From: Bittarella massiliensis (ex Durand et al. 2017)
GTDB lineage: Bacteria > Bacillota > Clostridia > Oscillospirales > Ruminococcaceae
Reading direction: 5' to 3'
Assembly: GCF_001486165.1 (NCBI RefSeq)
Contig: NZ_LN908975.1
Span: 248,001-312,000 of the forward strand
Length of the DNA stretch: 64,000 nt
In this document: positions 20,336 through 26,204 of the stretch, piece by piece
Layout: each line of letters begins with the position of its first letter
Numbering within the stretch: the first letter of the stretch is position 1
Program-made: the position numbers and the translations under genes
Notes under the pieces: generated by a model
The model's input: only the letters and a program-made list of their open reading frames with translations
Told to the model about the DNA's origin: nothing
The model's database searches: none

Positions 20336-20602
20336 TTAGCCCCGCAAAATCTCCTCCTGGTAGGCCCGGCTCAGGCGGATGGCAGTGGACAGCAGTTCGC
20401 AGGCCGCGTCCCCCATCTCCGGCGGCACCTGGGCCCGGGCGCGGGCGAGGATGGCATCCTCCCGCCCCTGGTTGAGCACCGGCAGCCCCCGCTCTTTTTT
20501 GTACTGCCCCACCTGGGCCACCACCGCCATCCGGCGGCAGAAGAGGGAGAGCAGCTCCCGGTCGATTTGGTCGATTTCCTCCCGCAGCTTGTCCAGTTCC
20601 AC
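20336..20602 (-). CDS. aroQ: chorismate mutase, AroQ class
   Basis: An 88-aa all-helical chorismate mutase converting chorismate to prephenate. Key features: LREEIDQIDRELLSLFCRRM (Arg and Asp of helix 1), VAQVGQYKKERGLPVLNQGRED (Lys and Arg of the active site), and the C-terminal helix SRAYQEEIL. It is a stand-alone domain, not fused to prephenate dehydratase. GTG start at 20602 after AGGGAGGAA. Last gene of the aro operon, 42 bases after aroC. Confidence 0.9.
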   Translation of the reverse strand: MELDKLREEIDQIDRELLSLFCRRMAVVAQVGQYKKERGLPVLNQGREDAILARARAQVPPEMGDAACELLSTAIRLSRAYQEEILRG

Positions 20603-20644: not shown

Positions 20645-21715
20645 TTAGCCCAGCAGGTCTGCCAGGGCGATGGCGGCGGCCGCCTCCACGCAGACGGCGG
20701 CCCGGGGGACGATGCAGGGGTCGTGCCGCCCGCGGATCTCGGCGGTGAGGGCCTCTCCGGTGACAAAGTTGACCGTCTGCTGCGGCTTGGCGATGGAGGG
20801 GGTGGGCTTGAAGGCCGCCCGAAAGAGGAGCGGCATCCCGTTGGAGATGCCCCCCTGGATCCCCCCGGCGGCGTTGCGGCTGGTGCGGATCTTCCCCCCT
20901 TCGCTGACAAAGGGGTCGTTGCTCTCGCTCCCCCGCATGCGGGCGGCGGAAAACCCGGCCCCAAACTCCACCCCTTTCACCGCGGGGATGGCGAAGAGGA
21001 GGTAGGCCAGCCGGCTCTCCAGGGTGTCGAAGAAGGGGTCGCCCACCCCGGCGGGCAGCCCGGTGACGGCGCACTCCACCACCCCGCCCACCGAGTCGCA
21101 GTCGGCCCGGGCGGCGGCAATGGCGGCCTGCATCCCCTCGCCGGCGGCGGGGTCGAGCACCGGAAAGTCGCGGCTGTGCAGAGTGTCGAATTCCCGGGGC
21201 CCCACCGACACCGGGTCAAAGGGGGTGTCCGCCACCCCGGCGATCTCCGCCGCGTGGGCGCCGATGGCGATGCCCCGCTGCCGCAGCATCAGGCTGGCCA
21301 CCGCCCCGGCGTAGACCAGGGGGGCCGTCAGCCGCCCCGAGAAGTGGCCGCCCCCCCGCACGTCGTTAAAGCCGCCGTAGCGCAGGTGGCCGGTGTAGTC
21401 GGCGTGGCCCGGCCGGGCGATCTGCGACTGGGGGCCGTAGTCGCCCGAGCGGGTGGAGGTGTTTTCGATCACCACCGTCAGGGGGGTGCCGCAGGCCACC
21501 CCGTCCACCGCCCCGCTGACGATGTGGGGCAGGTCGGGTTCGCGGCGGGCGGTGGAGTAGGCCCCCCGCGCCAGCCGTCGGGCGCAGTAGGCGCGGATGT
21601 ACCCCTCCTCCAGGTGCAGGCCGGGGGTCACCCCCTCAATTACCGCGCCGATGGCCGGGCCGTGGCTCTCCCCAAAGAGGGTCACCCGAAACCGGCTGCC
21701 AAAACTAGAAGACAT
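20645..21715 (-). CDS. aroC: chorismate synthase
   Basis: A 356-aa FMN-dependent enzyme converting EPSP to chorismate, the last shikimate step. Signatures: GESHGPAIGAVIEG near the N-terminus, ARRLARGAYSTARREPD near 47, RPGHADYTG near 103, GGHFSGRLTAPLVYAG near 123, and GGIQGGISNGMPLLFRAAFKPTPSI near 285. Its start overlaps the end of aroA by 11 bases, consistent with translational coupling. Confidence 0.96.
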   Translation of the reverse strand: MSSSFGSRFRVTLFGESHGPAIGAVIEGVTPGLHLEEGYIRAYCARRLARGAYSTARREPDLPHIVSGAVDGVACGTPLTVVIENTSTRSGDYGPQSQIARPGHADYTGHLRYGGFNDVRGGGHFSGRLTAPLVYAGAVASLMLRQRGIAIGAHAAEIAGVADTPFDPVSVGPREFDTLHSRDFPVLDPAAGEGMQAAIAAARADCDSVGGVVECAVTGLPAGVGDPFFDTLESRLAYLLFAIPAVKGVEFGAGFSAARMRGSESNDPFVSEGGKIRTSRNAAGGIQGGISNGMPLLFRAAFKPTPSIAKPQQTVNFVTGEALTAEIRGRHDPCIVPRAAVCVEAAAAIALADLLG

Positions 21716-22982
21716 GAACGCTTCCCCCCAACATCTCGTAATCGCGGAAGAAGTCGGGGTACGACTTCTCCACGCACTCGGCGCAGTCCAGCTCCACCGG
21801 CCCCTCGCACCAGAGGGCGGCGATGGCCGCGCTCATGGCCATGCGGTGGTCGCGGTGGGTGGCGGCCGGCCCGCCGGGCCGCAGCCCTTCGGCCAGGGGC
21901 TGGCCCTCCACCGCGAGCAGGTCTCCCTCGCCCCGGCAGCGGCCCCCCAGGTCACTGATGAGGGCGGCGGTGGCGGCTAGGCGGTCGCACTCTTTGATGG
22001 TCAGGCGGGCGGCGCCGGTAAAGGCGGTCTCCCCCTGGGCGGCGGCGGCGGTCACCGCCAGGATGGGCAGGATGTCAGGGATGTCCTCCCCCGCCACCGG
22101 GCCGCCGGTGAGGGGGGCCGACTGCACCCGCACAAAATCCCTGCCCCGGGTCACGGCGGCGCCCCAGCGCTCCAGCACGTCGCAGACCGCCCGGTCCCCC
22201 TGCAGCGAGAGGGGGGAGAGCCCTTCCACCGTCACGTCGCCGGAGATGGCCCCGGCGCAGAGGAAGAAGGCCGCGCCCGAATAGTCCCCCTCCACCGCGG
22301 TATCGCAGGGGACAAACCGCTGTCCCCCGGGGATGAACCAGCCCAGGGGGGTGCGCCGGGCCCTCACCCCGAAGGCGGCCATGGCCTGCAGGGTCATCTC
22401 CACGTAGGGCCCGGAGTGCAGCGGGGTGGTGAGGAGGATCTCGCTGTCCCCCTCCAGGGCGGCCAGGGCGAAGAGCAGCCCGGTGATGAACTGGCTGGAC
22501 ACGTCCCCGGCGATTTCGTACCGGCCCGGTTTCAGCTGCCCGCCCAGGGTGAAGGGGAGGGTGTTTTCGTAGTGGAAGGCGGCCCCGCCTGCCGCGAGGC
22601 AGGGCAGGATGGGGGAGAGGGGACGGCTGGGCAGCTGCCCGGCCCCCGAAAAGGTGGTCTCCACCCCCAGGGCGGCGGCCACCGGCACCAAAAAGCGGAG
22701 GGTGGAGCCGCTCTCCCCGCAGTCGATGGCGGCCTGTCGGGGCCGCGCCCCGGTGGGGATGCCCAGGATGGAGTAGGCCCCCCCGTCCATCCGCCGCACC
22801 CGGGCCCCCAGGGCGGCGATCCCCCGCAGGGTGGCCTGCACGTCCTTGGAGGCGGGGACGTTTCGCAGCACCGTCTCCCCCTCGGCCAGGGCCGCGCAGA
22901 GGAGCAGCCGGTGGGCCATCGACTTGGAGGGCGGCGCGGTGATGGCCCCCCGCAGGGCCCGGGCGGCGACCCGCGCCCTCAC
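21705..22982 (-). CDS. aroA: 3-phosphoshikimate 1-carboxyvinyltransferase (EPSP synthase)
   Basis: A 425-aa enzyme joining shikimate-3-phosphate and PEP. PPSKSMAHR near residue 16, CGESGSTLRFLVP near 80, QLPSRPLSPI near 110, SSQFITGLL near 150, EGDYSGAAFF near 220, and the C-terminal KECDRLAA and THRDHRMAM blocks are all present. The position before the conserved catalytic region matches the normal family length, so the enzyme seems intact. GTG at 22982 overlaps the aroB stop (GTGA), and is therefore preferred to the longer frame starting at 23027. Confidence 0.95.
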   Translation of the reverse strand: MRARVAARALRGAITAPPSKSMAHRLLLCAALAEGETVLRNVPASKDVQATLRGIAALGARVRRMDGGAYSILGIPTGARPRQAAIDCGESGSTLRFLVPVAAALGVETTFSGAGQLPSRPLSPILPCLAAGGAAFHYENTLPFTLGGQLKPGRYEIAGDVSSQFITGLLFALAALEGDSEILLTTPLHSGPYVEMTLQAMAAFGVRARRTPLGWFIPGGQRFVPCDTAVEGDYSGAAFFLCAGAISGDVTVEGLSPLSLQGDRAVCDVLERWGAAVTRGRDFVRVQSAPLTGGPVAGEDIPDILPILAVTAAAAQGETAFTGAARLTIKECDRLAATAALISDLGGRCRGEGDLLAVEGQPLAEGLRPGGPAATHRDHRMAMSAAIAALWCEGPVELDCAECVEKSYPDFFRDYEMLGGSVHVF

Positions 22983-24037
22983 GCCCGGCTCCCCCCAGCG
23001 GCCATGAACTGCGCGAAGGCGCCCCACTCCATCGACACCGGCTCACAGCGGCCGATGGCGCGGATGAGCACCGGGGAGATGCTCATCCCGTCCCGCTTTT
23101 TGTCCCCGGCGGCAATAGCCAGCAGCTCTTCCAGGGGGGCGTCATAGCGCCAGTCCAGGCCGTTTCGCTGCAGACAGTCGCGGATGGCGGCCGGCACCTC
23201 GGGGGCGCAGAGGCCGTTTCGGGCGCAGGCGTCGGCCATCATCTGCATCCCGATGGCCACCGCCTTGCCGTGGGTGACGGCAAAGCCCGAGTGCTTTTCG
23301 ATGGCGTGACCCAGGGTGTGGCCAAAGTTGAGGACCATCCGCTCCCCGGTGTCCCGCTCGTCGGCCTCCACCACCGCCGCCTTGATGGCGATGCAGCGGG
23401 CGACGATGGGTAGCAGGTTGCGGCGAAAGTCCCCCCGCATCTGCTCGAAGAGCTGCGCGTCGCGGATGGCGCCGTACTTGATGGCCTCCCCCACCCCGTC
23501 GGCAAAGGTCTCTTCCGGCAGGGTGTCGAAGAAGGCGGTGTCGCAGAGCACCGCCGAGGGCTGCCAGAAACAGCCCACCAGGTTTTTCCCCCCGTCGATG
23601 TTGACGGCGGTCTTCCCCCCCACCGAGGAGTCGATTTGGGCCAGCAGGGTGGTGGGGATCTGCACGTACTCCACCCCCCGCAGGTAGACGGCGGCGCAAA
23701 AGCCGGTCACGTCCCCAGGGATGCCGCCTCCCAGGGCCACCAGAAAGTCGCTGCGGGTGATGCCCTCACGGTGGAGAAACTCGCAGATCGCCAGGGCGGT
23801 CTCCATCCGCTTGTGGGGCTCCCCCCCGGGGAAGGCGAACTTGCAGCAGGGGATGCCCCGCCCCTCCAGCGCCCGACGCACCGATTCGCCGTAGAGGCCG
23901 TCCACCGTCTCGTCGGTGACAATGGCGGCCCGCTTGCCCTGGTGGCGCGCGGCCAACTGGTCGTAAAAGGCGTCAGCGCAGCCGTGGCCCACCGTCACCT
24001 CATAGGCTCTCCCGGTTTTGACTGGTATGATTTCCAA
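22979..24037 (-). CDS. aroB: 3-dehydroquinate synthase
   Basis: A 352-aa NAD- and metal-dependent enzyme that cyclises DAHP. Motifs: GGGIPGDVTGFCAAVYLRGV near 103-122, PTTLLAQIDSSVGGKTAVN near 127-145, and the metal-binding EAIKYG, NFGHTLGHAIE and THGKAVAIGM blocks. The start is TTG at 24037, inside the end of tyrA (38-base overlap), with AAGGAGGG upstream. Third structural gene of the aro operon. Confidence 0.96.
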   Translation of the reverse strand: MEIIPVKTGRAYEVTVGHGCADAFYDQLAARHQGKRAAIVTDETVDGLYGESVRRALEGRGIPCCKFAFPGGEPHKRMETALAICEFLHREGITRSDFLVALGGGIPGDVTGFCAAVYLRGVEYVQIPTTLLAQIDSSVGGKTAVNIDGGKNLVGCFWQPSAVLCDTAFFDTLPEETFADGVGEAIKYGAIRDAQLFEQMRGDFRRNLLPIVARCIAIKAAVVEADERDTGERMVLNFGHTLGHAIEKHSGFAVTHGKAVAIGMQMMADACARNGLCAPEVPAAIRDCLQRNGLDWRYDAPLEELLAIAAGDKKRDGMSISPVLIRAIGRCEPVSMEWGAFAQFMAAGGSRA

Positions 24038-24863
24038 GGGTCAGGCCCTCCTTTATTTCGCGTCCCTCCCGCAGCAGCCCCTCCAGGGCGCTGTCGTCCC
24101 CCTGGGCAAGGGCAGCCCGGTACCGGGCGAGGTTGTCGCTGAAGATGTCCAGTTCGGCCAGCAGGGCCGCCCGGTTCTGGGAGAACAGGTCGGTCCACAT
24201 GGCCTCGTTGAGTTTGGCCACCCGGGTCAGGTCCTTAAAGCTGCCCGCCGAAAAGCCGCCGAAGTCCCCGGCGGTGGGGCTTTTGACAAAGCAGTTACTG
24301 ACGATGTGGCACAGCTGCGAGGTCAGGGCGATGATGCGGTCGTGCTCCTCGGGGGTGGAGAGGACCACCTGCCGAAAGTGCAGGGAGAGAAAGAGGGCCC
24401 GCAGCTTTTCGATCTCCGCCTCGCCGCACCCGGGCCCGGGGGTCAGGATCATGCTGGCCCGGTGGAAGAGGTCGACCTGGCTGGCCCGGTAGCCCGAGAG
24501 CTCCCGCCCGGCCATGGGGTGGCCCCCCACAAAGGTGAACCCCTCCTCCCGGGCGATGGGCCAGACCTGGCGGCAAATCTCCCCCTTGACCCCGCAGCAG
24601 TCCACCACCAGCCCCCCCTTGGGGAAGGCGGCCCGGTTTTCCTCTATATAGTCTACCGTTTTTTGCGGCCAAAGGCAAACCAAAATCAGCTCGCACCCGC
24701 CAAAGCGGGCGGGGGTCAGCTCCCCCTGCGCCGCTCCGTCGCGCAGGGCGGCGGCCATGGTCTCGGCGTCCCGGTCACAGGCGAGGACCCGGTGGCCGTG
24801 CTGGGCAAAGCACTTGGCCAGGCTGCCGCCGATGAGGCCCAGCCCCACGATCCCCACCGTCAT
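24000..24863 (-). CDS. tyrA: prephenate dehydrogenase
   Basis: A 287-aa NAD(P)-dependent enzyme taking prephenate toward tyrosine. [11 protein letters not shown] at the N-terminus is the dinucleotide loop; GGHPMAGRE near 120 contains the catalytic-site His; the all-helical C-terminal dimerisation domain has [10 protein letters not shown] and FKDLTRVA. No ACT domain is present, so feedback regulation must lie elsewhere (AroF and the leader attenuator). ATG at 24863 overlaps the aroF stop as ATGA, with AAGGAG eight bases upstream, and is preferred to the ATG at 24872. Confidence 0.94.
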
Positions 24864-25876
24864 CTGGCCCACTCCTTCCCGCAGAGTTTCACAAAGGGCC
24901 GCAGCCCCTCCACCAAGTCGGCAAACTCCTGCGGGCGCAGGGACTGGGCGCCGTCGCAGAGGGCCTTTTCCGGCGCGTTGTGCACCTCGATGATCAGCCC
25001 GTCGGCCCCGGCGGCCACCGCCGCCCGGGACATGGGCTCGATCATCCAGGGGATGCCGGTGGCGTGGCTGGGATCCACCACCACCGGCAGGTGGGAGAGC
25101 CGCTTGAGCAGGGGGATGGCCGAGAGGTCCAGGGTGTTGCGGGTGGCCGTCTCAAAGGTGCGGATGCCCCGCTCGCAGAGGATCACCTGCTCGCAGCCGC
25201 CGGCCATCACGTACTCGGCGCTCATCAAAAACTCCTCGATGGTAGAGGAGAGCCCCCGCTTGAGCAGCACCGGCTTGCCCATCTCCCCCACGGCCCGCAG
25301 CAGGGTGAAGTTCTGCATGTTGCGGGCCCCCACCTGGATGATGTCTACGTCGGCGAAGTGGGGCAGCTGCTCCCTGTCCATCACCTCGCTGACGATGGGC
25401 ATCCCGGTCTTCTGGCGGGCGACCCGCAGCAGGTCCAGCCCCACCGGCCCCAGCCCCTGAAAGGCGTAGGGGGAGGTGCGGGGCTTGAAGGCGCCGCCCC
25501 GCAGCACACAGGCCCCGGCGCCCTTGACCGCCTGGGCCACCTCGGTGATCTGCTCGGCGCTCTCCACCGAGCAGGGGCCGGCGATCATGCAGAAGTGCCC
25601 GCCCCCCAGTTTGCGCCCGCTGACATCCACCACCGTGTCCTCGGGGTGGAACTTTCGGTTGGCCTTTTTGTAGGGCTCGGAGATGCGCTGTACCCGCTCC
25701 ACAAAGGGGAGGGAGGCCAGCTGTTCGGCGTCGAGGGACGAGGTGTCCCCCACCAGCCCCAGCAGGGTGGTCCGGGTCCCCCGGGAGAGGTGCACCTCCA
25801 TCCCCTGGTCGTGCAGCCAGTGGGTGAACTGGTCGATTTGTTCCTGAGTGGTTCCCTTTTTGCAGATGACGATCAT
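24860..25876 (-). CDS. aroF: 3-deoxy-7-phosphoheptulonate synthase (type I-beta)
   Basis: A 338-aa enzyme condensing PEP and erythrose-4-phosphate, the entry to the shikimate pathway. Residues 1-75 form the ferredoxin-like regulatory domain typical of the Thermotoga-type enzyme; the barrel follows with [10 protein letters not shown] near 87, [17 protein letters not shown] near 118, MQNFTLL near 180, KRGLSS near 200, CERGIRTFE near 230 and DPSHATG near 258. Start ATG at 25876 with GGAGGAAAAC upstream. First structural gene behind the Tyr-rich leader and terminator. Confidence 0.96.
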
Positions 25877-25941: not shown

Positions 25942-25983
25942 CAAAAAAAGCCGGCACCTGGGAGGCGAAGCCCAGGTACCGGC
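25942..25983 (-). terminator. attenuator terminator before aroF
   Basis: Minus strand: stem GCCGGTACCTGGG / CCCAGGTGCCGGC (arms 25971-25983 and 25950-25962) with one G-U pair, an 8-base loop and then T7 (25943-25949). It lies between the leader stop codon and aroF, the place expected for conditional termination. Confidence 0.85.
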
Positions 25984-26017
25984 AAAAAAATCGCTCTGTG
26001 GTTTTCTTTTACCCGCT

Positions 26018-26131
26018 CTACCCGCGGCCCCTCTTCACTTTTCCATACGACAAAACGCCCGCGCCATAAAAATAGCCCAGGTAGCGGTAGCCGTAATAGG
26101 AGACCGAAGAGAGGGAGACCGCGTTGTCCAT
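26018..26131 (-). CDS. tyrosine-rich leader peptide of the aro operon
   Basis: A 37-codon ORF too short for ordinary gene calling. ATG at 26131-26129 with AAAGGAG nine bases upstream, TAG stop at 26020-26018. Seven of 37 residues are Tyr (12, 13, 15, 17, 20, 22, 29) and residue 21 is Phe, so seven aromatic codons fall between 12 and 22. The peptide has a near-average rest (Gly, Ser, Val). It sits 37 bases after the predicted transcription start and about 35 bases before the terminator hairpin. This is the arrangement of ribosome-stalling attenuators, here for tyrosine. Established analogues are the E. coli trp and pheA leaders; this particular leader was found by reading the sequence. Confidence 0.82.
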   Translation of the reverse strand: MDNAVSLSSVSYYGYRYLGYFYGAGVLSYGKVKRGRG

Positions 26132-26175
26132 GTTGCTTTACTCCTTTAAAGGGCGACTGCATCGCCTTTGTACCC

Positions 26176-26204
26176 AATATACGCCGCCGGCGGGGATTTG
26201 TCAA
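26176..26204 (-). promoter_or_regulatory. promoter of the aro operon
   Basis: Consensus sigma-A promoter on the minus strand: TTGACA (26199-26204), exactly 17 bases, TATATT (26176-26181). Predicted start near 26168. Confidence 0.85.

Follow-up and report, generated by a model that had tools for sequence, protein, structure and literature searches.

We found that the aroF-tyrA operon of the Bittarella genome is preceded by a tyrosine-rich leader open reading frame (ORF) and an intrinsic terminator, which very probably constitute a ribosome-mediated (trp-type) transcription attenuator of the aroF operon that senses Tyr-tRNA. Judged from the sequence, the Tyr-rich ORF and the terminator most likely let the tyrosine-making genes be read only when tyrosine is short. 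The component parts are present in the window (the whole stretch of DNA that was analyzed, 64 kb), the arrangement is conserved among sampled aroF copies, a Phe-rich counterpart is located at the genome's own aroF-pheA, and group-wide pairing statistics are in line with this view.

The leader region and the aroF-tyrA operon

All window features described below lie on the minus strand. A consensus scan revealed a sigma-A-like promoter (26176..26204), in which the -35 box TTGACA, starting at 26204, is separated by a 17-nt spacer from the -10 box TATATT, ending at 26176. The two boxes match the consensus at 11 of 12 positions, and one such site was present in the 2 kb scanned versus 0.2 in shuffles. 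Downstream, a Shine-Dalgarno-like AAAGGAG, read in the sequence at 26141..26147, lies 9 nt 5' of the ATG at 26131 that opens a leader ORF of 37 codons (26018..26131), the product of which is MDNAVSLSSVSYYGYRYLGYFYGAGVLSYGKVKRGRG. Seven of its codons specify Tyr (codons 12, 13, 15, 17, 20, 22 and 29) and one specifies Phe (codon 21); codons 12-22 were assigned as the putative stall codons from the sequence and its conservation. The ORF is followed by an intrinsic terminator of 13 pairs (25950..25983; -27.2 kcal/mol) with a run of seven T residues (25949-25943), and aroF begins with the ATG at 25876. These observations agree with the sequence-only reading of this DNA, which had described a sigma-A promoter, a 37-codon ORF with six of its seven Tyr codons and the single Phe codon in codons 12-22, and an intrinsic terminator with T7 ahead of aroF. 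The same reading had pointed to bases shared by Tyr17-Leu18-Gly19 and the terminator 5' arm, and TACCTGGGC was indeed present twice, at 26083 in leader codons 17-19 and at 25978 in the terminator 5' arm. In particular, the features expected of an attenuator are present: a short ORF with an ATG and a ribosome-binding site, placed between promoter and terminator; a codon run for an amino acid that the operon makes (Tyr, six of seven codons within codons 12-22, before aroF-tyrA); and an intrinsic terminator 5' of the first structural gene, aroF.

On the 3' side of the terminator, the operon runs in the order aroF-tyrA-aroB-aroA-aroC-chorismate mutase. The aroF gene (24860..25876), for 3-deoxy-7-phosphoheptulonate synthase, scored over the cut-offs of NCBIfam PRK08673.1 and TIGR01361. 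For tyrA (24000..24872), for prephenate dehydrogenase, the 15 NCBIfam matches were all to models of prephenate/arogenate dehydrogenase, and all of them scored below the curated cut-offs of these models. The aroB (22979..24037; TIGR01357) and aroA (21705..23027; TIGR01356) genes, the start codons of which are uncertain, as well as aroC (20645..21715; chorismate synthase, PRK05382.1) and the chorismate mutase gene that had earlier been called aroQ (20336..20602; TIGR01808), were all over the respective cut-offs.

The upstream neighbor is a ytvI-like sporulation gene (slightly below the cut-off of TIGR02872) with its stop at 26201, and the promoter follows directly after it. This position could suggest that the terminator is constitutive or ends the transcript of the ytvI-type gene, and that the Tyr-rich ORF encodes a small protein or arose by chance. 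Upon shuffling of 25943-26204 with dinucleotide content kept, 9 of 3000 shuffles contained an ORF with at least seven Tyr, Phe or Trp in 14 residues; because these shuffles reach its aromatic density, the leader ORF by itself, though unusual, does not settle the matter, and it is conservation that decides. We consider a constitutive or upstream-gene terminator with an incidental ORF extremely improbable, as the promoter and the leader ORF stand between the ytvI-type gene and the terminator, and the whole arrangement was found at 114 of 191 aroF copies versus none of 382 controls.

Conservation of the leader and its relation to the neighboring gene

These counts come from a non-random sample of 195 loci with 197 aroF copies, which was made up of 80 named contigs (the best 80 of at least 592 confirmed), 55 regions and a further 60 regions among the matches listed, the 60 being mostly from genomes with two aroF copies. 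Six of the 197 copies were dropped, one without upstream sequence and five duplicates, leaving 191. A copy was scored as positive when an ORF with an ATG, a Shine-Dalgarno sequence of at least 4 nt, at most 75 codons and at least six Tyr, Phe or Trp in 14 residues (nested starts were scanned) was followed by a terminator with an energy of -8 kcal/mol or lower, the whole lying no more than 350 nt from aroF. Under this strict rule, the 114 positives among the 191 distinct copies sampled were mostly from Clostridia, the arrangement was not found at the other 77, and neither the 191 reverse complements nor the 191 shuffles yielded a single case. The positives were distributed over the sample as 44 of 79 copies in the named part, 30 of 53 in the 55-region part and 40 of 59 in the 60-region part. 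Loosened start and Shine-Dalgarno rules over 500 nt added 9 of the 77 negatives (3 of these strict), with 1 of 77 reverse complements and none of 77 shuffles as controls. Among the named positives are Oscillibacter valericigenes (L057), Angelakisella massiliensis (L066) and Clostridium mediterraneense (L063), and Clostridium magnum (L111) and C. cuniculi (L094) were positive once 500 nt were read. A sigma-A-like promoter was located within 120 nt upstream of 107 of the 114 leaders, as compared with 29 of 114 on the other strand, and in another leader set 85 of 89 had a terminator, as did 67 of 264 shuffles.

The window is represented among the 191 copies by its relative L045, Bittarella massiliensis, which is the nearest named relative among the matches listed and shows 99% identity in aroF and 96.5% identity to the window DNA over 2541 bases. 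G140, the closest relative among the matches listed (aroF 73% identical), has the leader MHTLLSKTAYNSYYGYAYLGYFYSAGRLCCGLSGDRGQ at the same place; compared by eye with window codons 12-22, all six Tyr and the Phe are kept with a one-position shift. The Tyr positions of the window leader are also kept in L045 and L182. The comparison with related genomes that had been proposed as a check of the leader was favorable, with the Tyr cluster kept in G140 and the arrangement recurring across the sample. The earlier remark that a Tyr leader is unusual in Firmicutes needs modification: Tyr/Phe leaders were present at 114 of the 191 aroF copies sampled, and such a leader is no oddity of the Bittarella genome. 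From the sequences, a switch of the same kind, with Tyr or Phe codons, appears to stand before aroF in many related gut bacteria.

Codon changes were compared in 51 pairs chosen by peptide similarity. The Tyr/Phe positions showed 75 synonymous changes, 46 Tyr-Phe swaps and 99 other changes, where random single changes are expected to give fractions of 0.18, 0.09 and 0.73, respectively; 123 of 323 changes at non-aromatic positions were synonymous, and the test, which did not separate aromatic positions from other positions in these pairs, was given no weight as evidence. Among the sampled loci, no aromatic leader was found under the strict rule at L160, L172, L173, L175, L225 (aroF-aroA-tyrA) and L229 (aroF-aroA), and a T-box core pattern was present upstream of aroF in L172; these loci are likely subject to different regulation.

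The Bittarella genome (G000) contains a second aroF, which is 65% identical to the window aroF and is followed by pheA; the latter scored over the cut-off of Pfam PDT and just under that of NCBIfam. The leader region of this sister operon (L125 1238-1500; G000:C9) has a TTGACA-17-TATCAT promoter and a terminator, and its leader ORF, MAHLEHRFFRFSSLGFFFSSSFFGVDRAVCQTMRTV, contains eight Phe and no Tyr codons. Within one genome, aroF-tyrA thus has a Tyr leader and aroF-pheA a Phe leader.

To describe this relation across the group, we compared the Tyr share of the leaders, Y/(Y+F), between neighboring genes, leaving out 22 leaders for which no next gene was recognized and 2 that precede a second aroF. 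The mean share was 0.50 before tyrA (n=52), versus 0.20 before pheA (n=9; p=2e-5) and 0.25 before aroB (n=29; p=3e-9), and phylogenetic least squares with the aroF tree covariance gave a tyrA effect of 0.23 (n=90; p=3e-6). Tyr codons outnumbered Phe codons in 17 of 52 leaders before tyrA, 0 of 29 before aroB and 0 of 9 before pheA, and in many leaders before tyrA the two were about equal; thus, a strong Tyr bias exists in part of the group, window included. Trp codons occurred in 6 of 52 leaders before tyrA, 13 of 29 before aroB and 5 of 9 before pheA. In 13 genomes two aroF copies bear leaders, and in 10 of the 13 exactly one copy adjoins tyrA; this copy had the higher Tyr share in 8 of the 10 genomes and the lower share in 2 (G091 and G075). 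The G075 exception is a tandem aroF-aroF-tyrA, in which both aroF copies lead to tyrA, and its leaders contain four Tyr and three Phe at the tyrA-adjoining copy and six Tyr and two Phe at the first. The Tyr share of the leader follows the neighboring gene, also after phylogenetic correction, with exceptions. In G091 (L188, L189), a leader with one Tyr and nine Phe precedes aroF-tyrA, where the tyrA start was assigned by eye at the contig end, and the other leader, with six Tyr and two Phe, precedes an aroF whose next ORF resembles thioredoxin.

We lean slightly towards the view that the aroF attenuators of Clostridia form a large family in which the codon mix of the leader is a tunable code, with Tyr codons ahead of operons that lead to tyrosine, Phe codons ahead of those that lead to phenylalanine, and mixed or Trp-containing leaders where a single aroF supplies the whole pathway. 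A single base separates Tyr from Phe codons, so that point mutations could let duplicated operons exchange their signals. The central proposal of the sequence-only reading, a Tyr-responsive attenuator of aroF-tyrA, gains support at the sequence level from the conservation, the Phe leader of the sister operon and the link between leader and neighboring gene.

RNA pairing and the proposed switch

The folds gave the pairings 1:2, 2:3 and 3:4, the last being the terminator. Segment 1 (26105..26127), which covers leader codons 2-9, is predicted to pair with the 5' half of segment 2; in the fold of 26140-25990, 26127..26105 was paired with 26037..26020. Segment 2 (26004..26031) is composed of the last leader codons, the stop codon TAG (26020-26018) and the next bases, and would form the 5' half of the antiterminator. 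Its predicted partner, segment 3 (25967..25990), is composed of a U-run, the terminator 5' arm and the start of the loop. When the 3' arm was withheld, 26031-26004, within which the stop codon lies, paired with 25990-25967 (2:3) at -26.7 kcal/mol. A further candidate, in which the leader copy of TACCTGGGC pairs with the terminator 3' arm, was absent from the folds. It would also act in the wrong direction, since codons 17-19 would lie under a ribosome stalled at the Tyr codons; the competition of the leader for the 3' arm, as originally suggested for this region, is probably wrong.

The proposed mechanism is leader-peptide attenuation of the trp type (PMC2659441, PMC9413887). RNA polymerase would start soon after the -10 box, and a ribosome would translate the leader. 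With ample Tyr-tRNA, the ribosome would arrive at the stop codon and cover segment 2, the terminator 3:4 would form, and transcription would stop before aroF. With charged Tyr-tRNA scarce, the ribosome would stall at codons 12-22 and leave segment 2 free; segment 2 would then pair with segment 3, the terminator would not be formed in time, and aroF-tyrA-aroB-aroA-aroC-chorismate mutase would be made. If no translation took place, 1:2 and then 3:4 would be expected. Translation of the leader, the stalling, the switch itself and Tyr-tRNA as its signal are what we infer. The equilibrium fold of the complete RNA favors the terminator, and therefore the switch must be kinetic.

Pairing in different ribosome states was calculated for 115 leaders, the 114 positives and the window itself as the 115th, with only the RNA ahead of the ribosome allowed to pair and with the upstream stretch shuffled as a control. 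The group mean probability that the terminator 5' arm pairs upstream was 0.70 with the ribosome at the aromatic codons versus 0.54 with the upstream stretch shuffled, and it was 0.32 with the ribosome at the stop codon and 0.49 without a ribosome. The corresponding values for the window were 0.89 (stalled), 0.60 (shuffled), 0.28 (at the stop codon) and 0.72 (without a ribosome), and this modeled stall-versus-stop difference is the behavior that would be expected of a trp-type attenuator. When the RNA behind the ribosome was also free to pair, the window gave 0.76 both in the stalled and in the ribosome-free state and 0.11 at the stop codon; part of the stall-versus-stop difference is trivial, because less RNA is free with the ribosome at the stop.

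Pairing of the 5' arm was above the leader's own shuffles in 97 of 115 leaders, below them in L168 and equal to them in L127. The 2:3 duplex energies showed a mean z of -1.74, with p<=0.05 in 51 of 115 leaders; L182 (z +0.74) and L132 (z 0.02) showed no excess over shuffles, and the window alone, with a z of -1.1 and a p of 0.14, was not significant versus shuffles. Support for the antiterminator is thus good for the group and not significant for the window alone. A stricter test, with a strict terminator finder and the loop left out, gave a mean z of -0.52 and p<=0.05 in 7 of 40, and a test with the loop and a looser terminator finder gave a mean z of -2.04 and p<=0.05 in 45 of 83; these p-values, including those for the 115 leaders, are exploratory because the rule was changed after the sequences had been inspected.

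A recurrent stretch like GTGATTTGTGCTGCAAA was observed between the aromatic codons and the terminator in L115, L119, L108, L112, L117, L122 and L135, in some loci within the leader ORF and in others 3' of it. This stretch, which by its sequence would be able to pair with the terminator 5' arm and loop, is likely a conserved segment 2. We also observed a leader core like LG-Y/F-Y/F-Y/F-S-A-G at 26057-26080 of the window and in the matching part of L182, L134, L130 and L132; its bases could form a small intra-leader hairpin, perhaps an RNA polymerase pause site.

Inspection by eye revealed that many leaders extend such a core beyond the aromatic run, as in LG-Y/F-Y/F-Y/F-S-A-G-x-F-C-C, and the conservation of this core exceeds the need of codon counting alone. 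Both points would fit nascent-chain sensing, in which a TnaC-like leader peptide arrests the ribosome on free tyrosine or another ligand and not on scarce charged tRNA. We nevertheless regard such sensing as very unlikely: other leaders are short and lack the core, for example MSRNYFTAYFYFYFRS (L078); the stretches around the FCC end of the core coincide with recurrent RNA pairing in 2:3; and the sign would be reversed, because arrest at high tyrosine would switch the synthesis genes on. Stalling on scarce charged Tyr-tRNA is the reading that we prefer.

T-boxes and comparison with known systems

A T-box binds tRNA directly, without translation. We found 14 T-box matches (RF00230) in the genome at E<=0.001, four of which were over the cut-off; none of the 14 is located at either aroF, and two precede tyrS and pheS. 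A T-box core pattern was absent upstream of both own aroF copies and present upstream of 4 of the 191 sampled copies, none of them leader-bearing; this pattern undercounts, as it picks up 9 of the 14 T-box matches in the genome. It appears that Bittarella relies on T-boxes to control the two synthetases and on leader peptides to control the pathway. According to the earlier statement, Firmicutes usually rely on T-boxes for such control; in the Bittarella genome, T-box matches stand before tyrS and pheS instead, none of the 14 lies at an aroF, and 114 of 191 sampled aroF copies have a leader.

At the gathering score, Rfam showed no match in the window. Ten leader-bearing loci of relatives, compared with Rfam at E<=1, showed three weak matches (Fluoride, NrrF and anti-hemB), all below gathering, and no T-box or amino-acid leader was among the three. 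The predicted fold of the complete leader RNA is more stable than those of shuffles (z -2.49), and this, together with the presence of T-boxes in the genome, could indicate an unrecognized riboswitch or T-box-like ligand-binding RNA in the 5' region, to which the ORF would be incidental. The Rfam and T-box core results given above argue against this explanation, and the content of the reading frame follows the neighboring gene, which an aptamer would not require; we therefore consider it highly improbable, and the Tyr-tRNA-sensing attenuator is retained.

Among the literature matches listed, a scope outside which most subscription journals fall, we found neither a Tyr leader at an aroF of Clostridia nor Tyr and Phe sister leaders in one genome; no experiment on the Clostridia aroF leader system was among the matches listed. 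Leader-peptide attenuation is an old kind of control, and the Tyr- or Phe-tuned aroF system of Clostridia is apparently new. If the codon-code reading is true, the window would hold the first well-documented Tyr-tRNA-sensing leader peptide, and the genome an isozyme-specific leader pair. In many gut Clostridia, entry into the shikimate pathway would then be governed by the translation of a tiny Tyr/Phe-rich ORF and not by T-boxes. The sister operons of one genome, Tyr versus Phe, would represent a natural experiment on the evolution of attenuator specificity, and the leaders would form a new RNA family for annotation and offer a point of access to the aromatic amino acid supply of gut bacteria.

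Enterobacterial trp, his, pheA and pheST attenuators contain a short ORF rich in codons for the product, alternative hairpins and an intrinsic terminator before the first gene. The window region is similar to them in its product-codon ORF, the stop codon near segment 2, the predicted alternative hairpins and the terminator before the first gene. In contrast, its codons are mainly Tyr, the host belongs to the Clostridia, the target is aroF together with the larger part of the shikimate pathway, there is a Phe version at a sister operon, and no Rfam leader family was matched. Leader-peptide attenuation in Firmicutes has also been described for other amino acids and operons: His leader peptides occur in the Bacillus cereus group, in relatives of C. 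difficile and in Erysipelotrichales (PMC9413887, PMC2965389), and Staphylococcus aureus has a Leu-rich ilv attenuator, for which an experimental demonstration was reported (PMC5794164). T-boxes for tyrosine genes have been described (PMC1262725, PMC2494555); in particular, the Tyr T-box of the tyrosine operon in the B. cereus group (PMC2494555) shares with the window the signal proposed here (uncharged Tyr-tRNA), the pathway and a Firmicute host, whereas no T-box was found at the window aroF. An uncharacterized cis-element, gbs2033, was reported upstream of the Enterococcus faecium aroFBC-tyrA operon (PMC4448216).

The uORFC-13-1 motif comprises 24 sequences from Acholeplasma and environmental sources, is located exclusively upstream of aroF and was proposed to act by attenuation (PMC8632094). 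It resembles the window in having a promoter, a ribosome-binding site, a short ORF (with at least one Phe codon), a terminator and aroF as the target; it is set apart by its description as Phe only, with no Tyr version or paralogue pair described in the available excerpt (PMC8632094). The same paper states that uORFC-13-1 differs from the E. coli aroF-tyrA 5' UTR and cites Camakaris 1980 for the proposal of an attenuator at E. coli aroF-tyrA, which is also listed in a table row of PMC2659441 as 'Attenuator sensing tyr-tRNA'. The E. coli case is a hypothesis, and it has both the gene pair and the proposed signal in common with the window.
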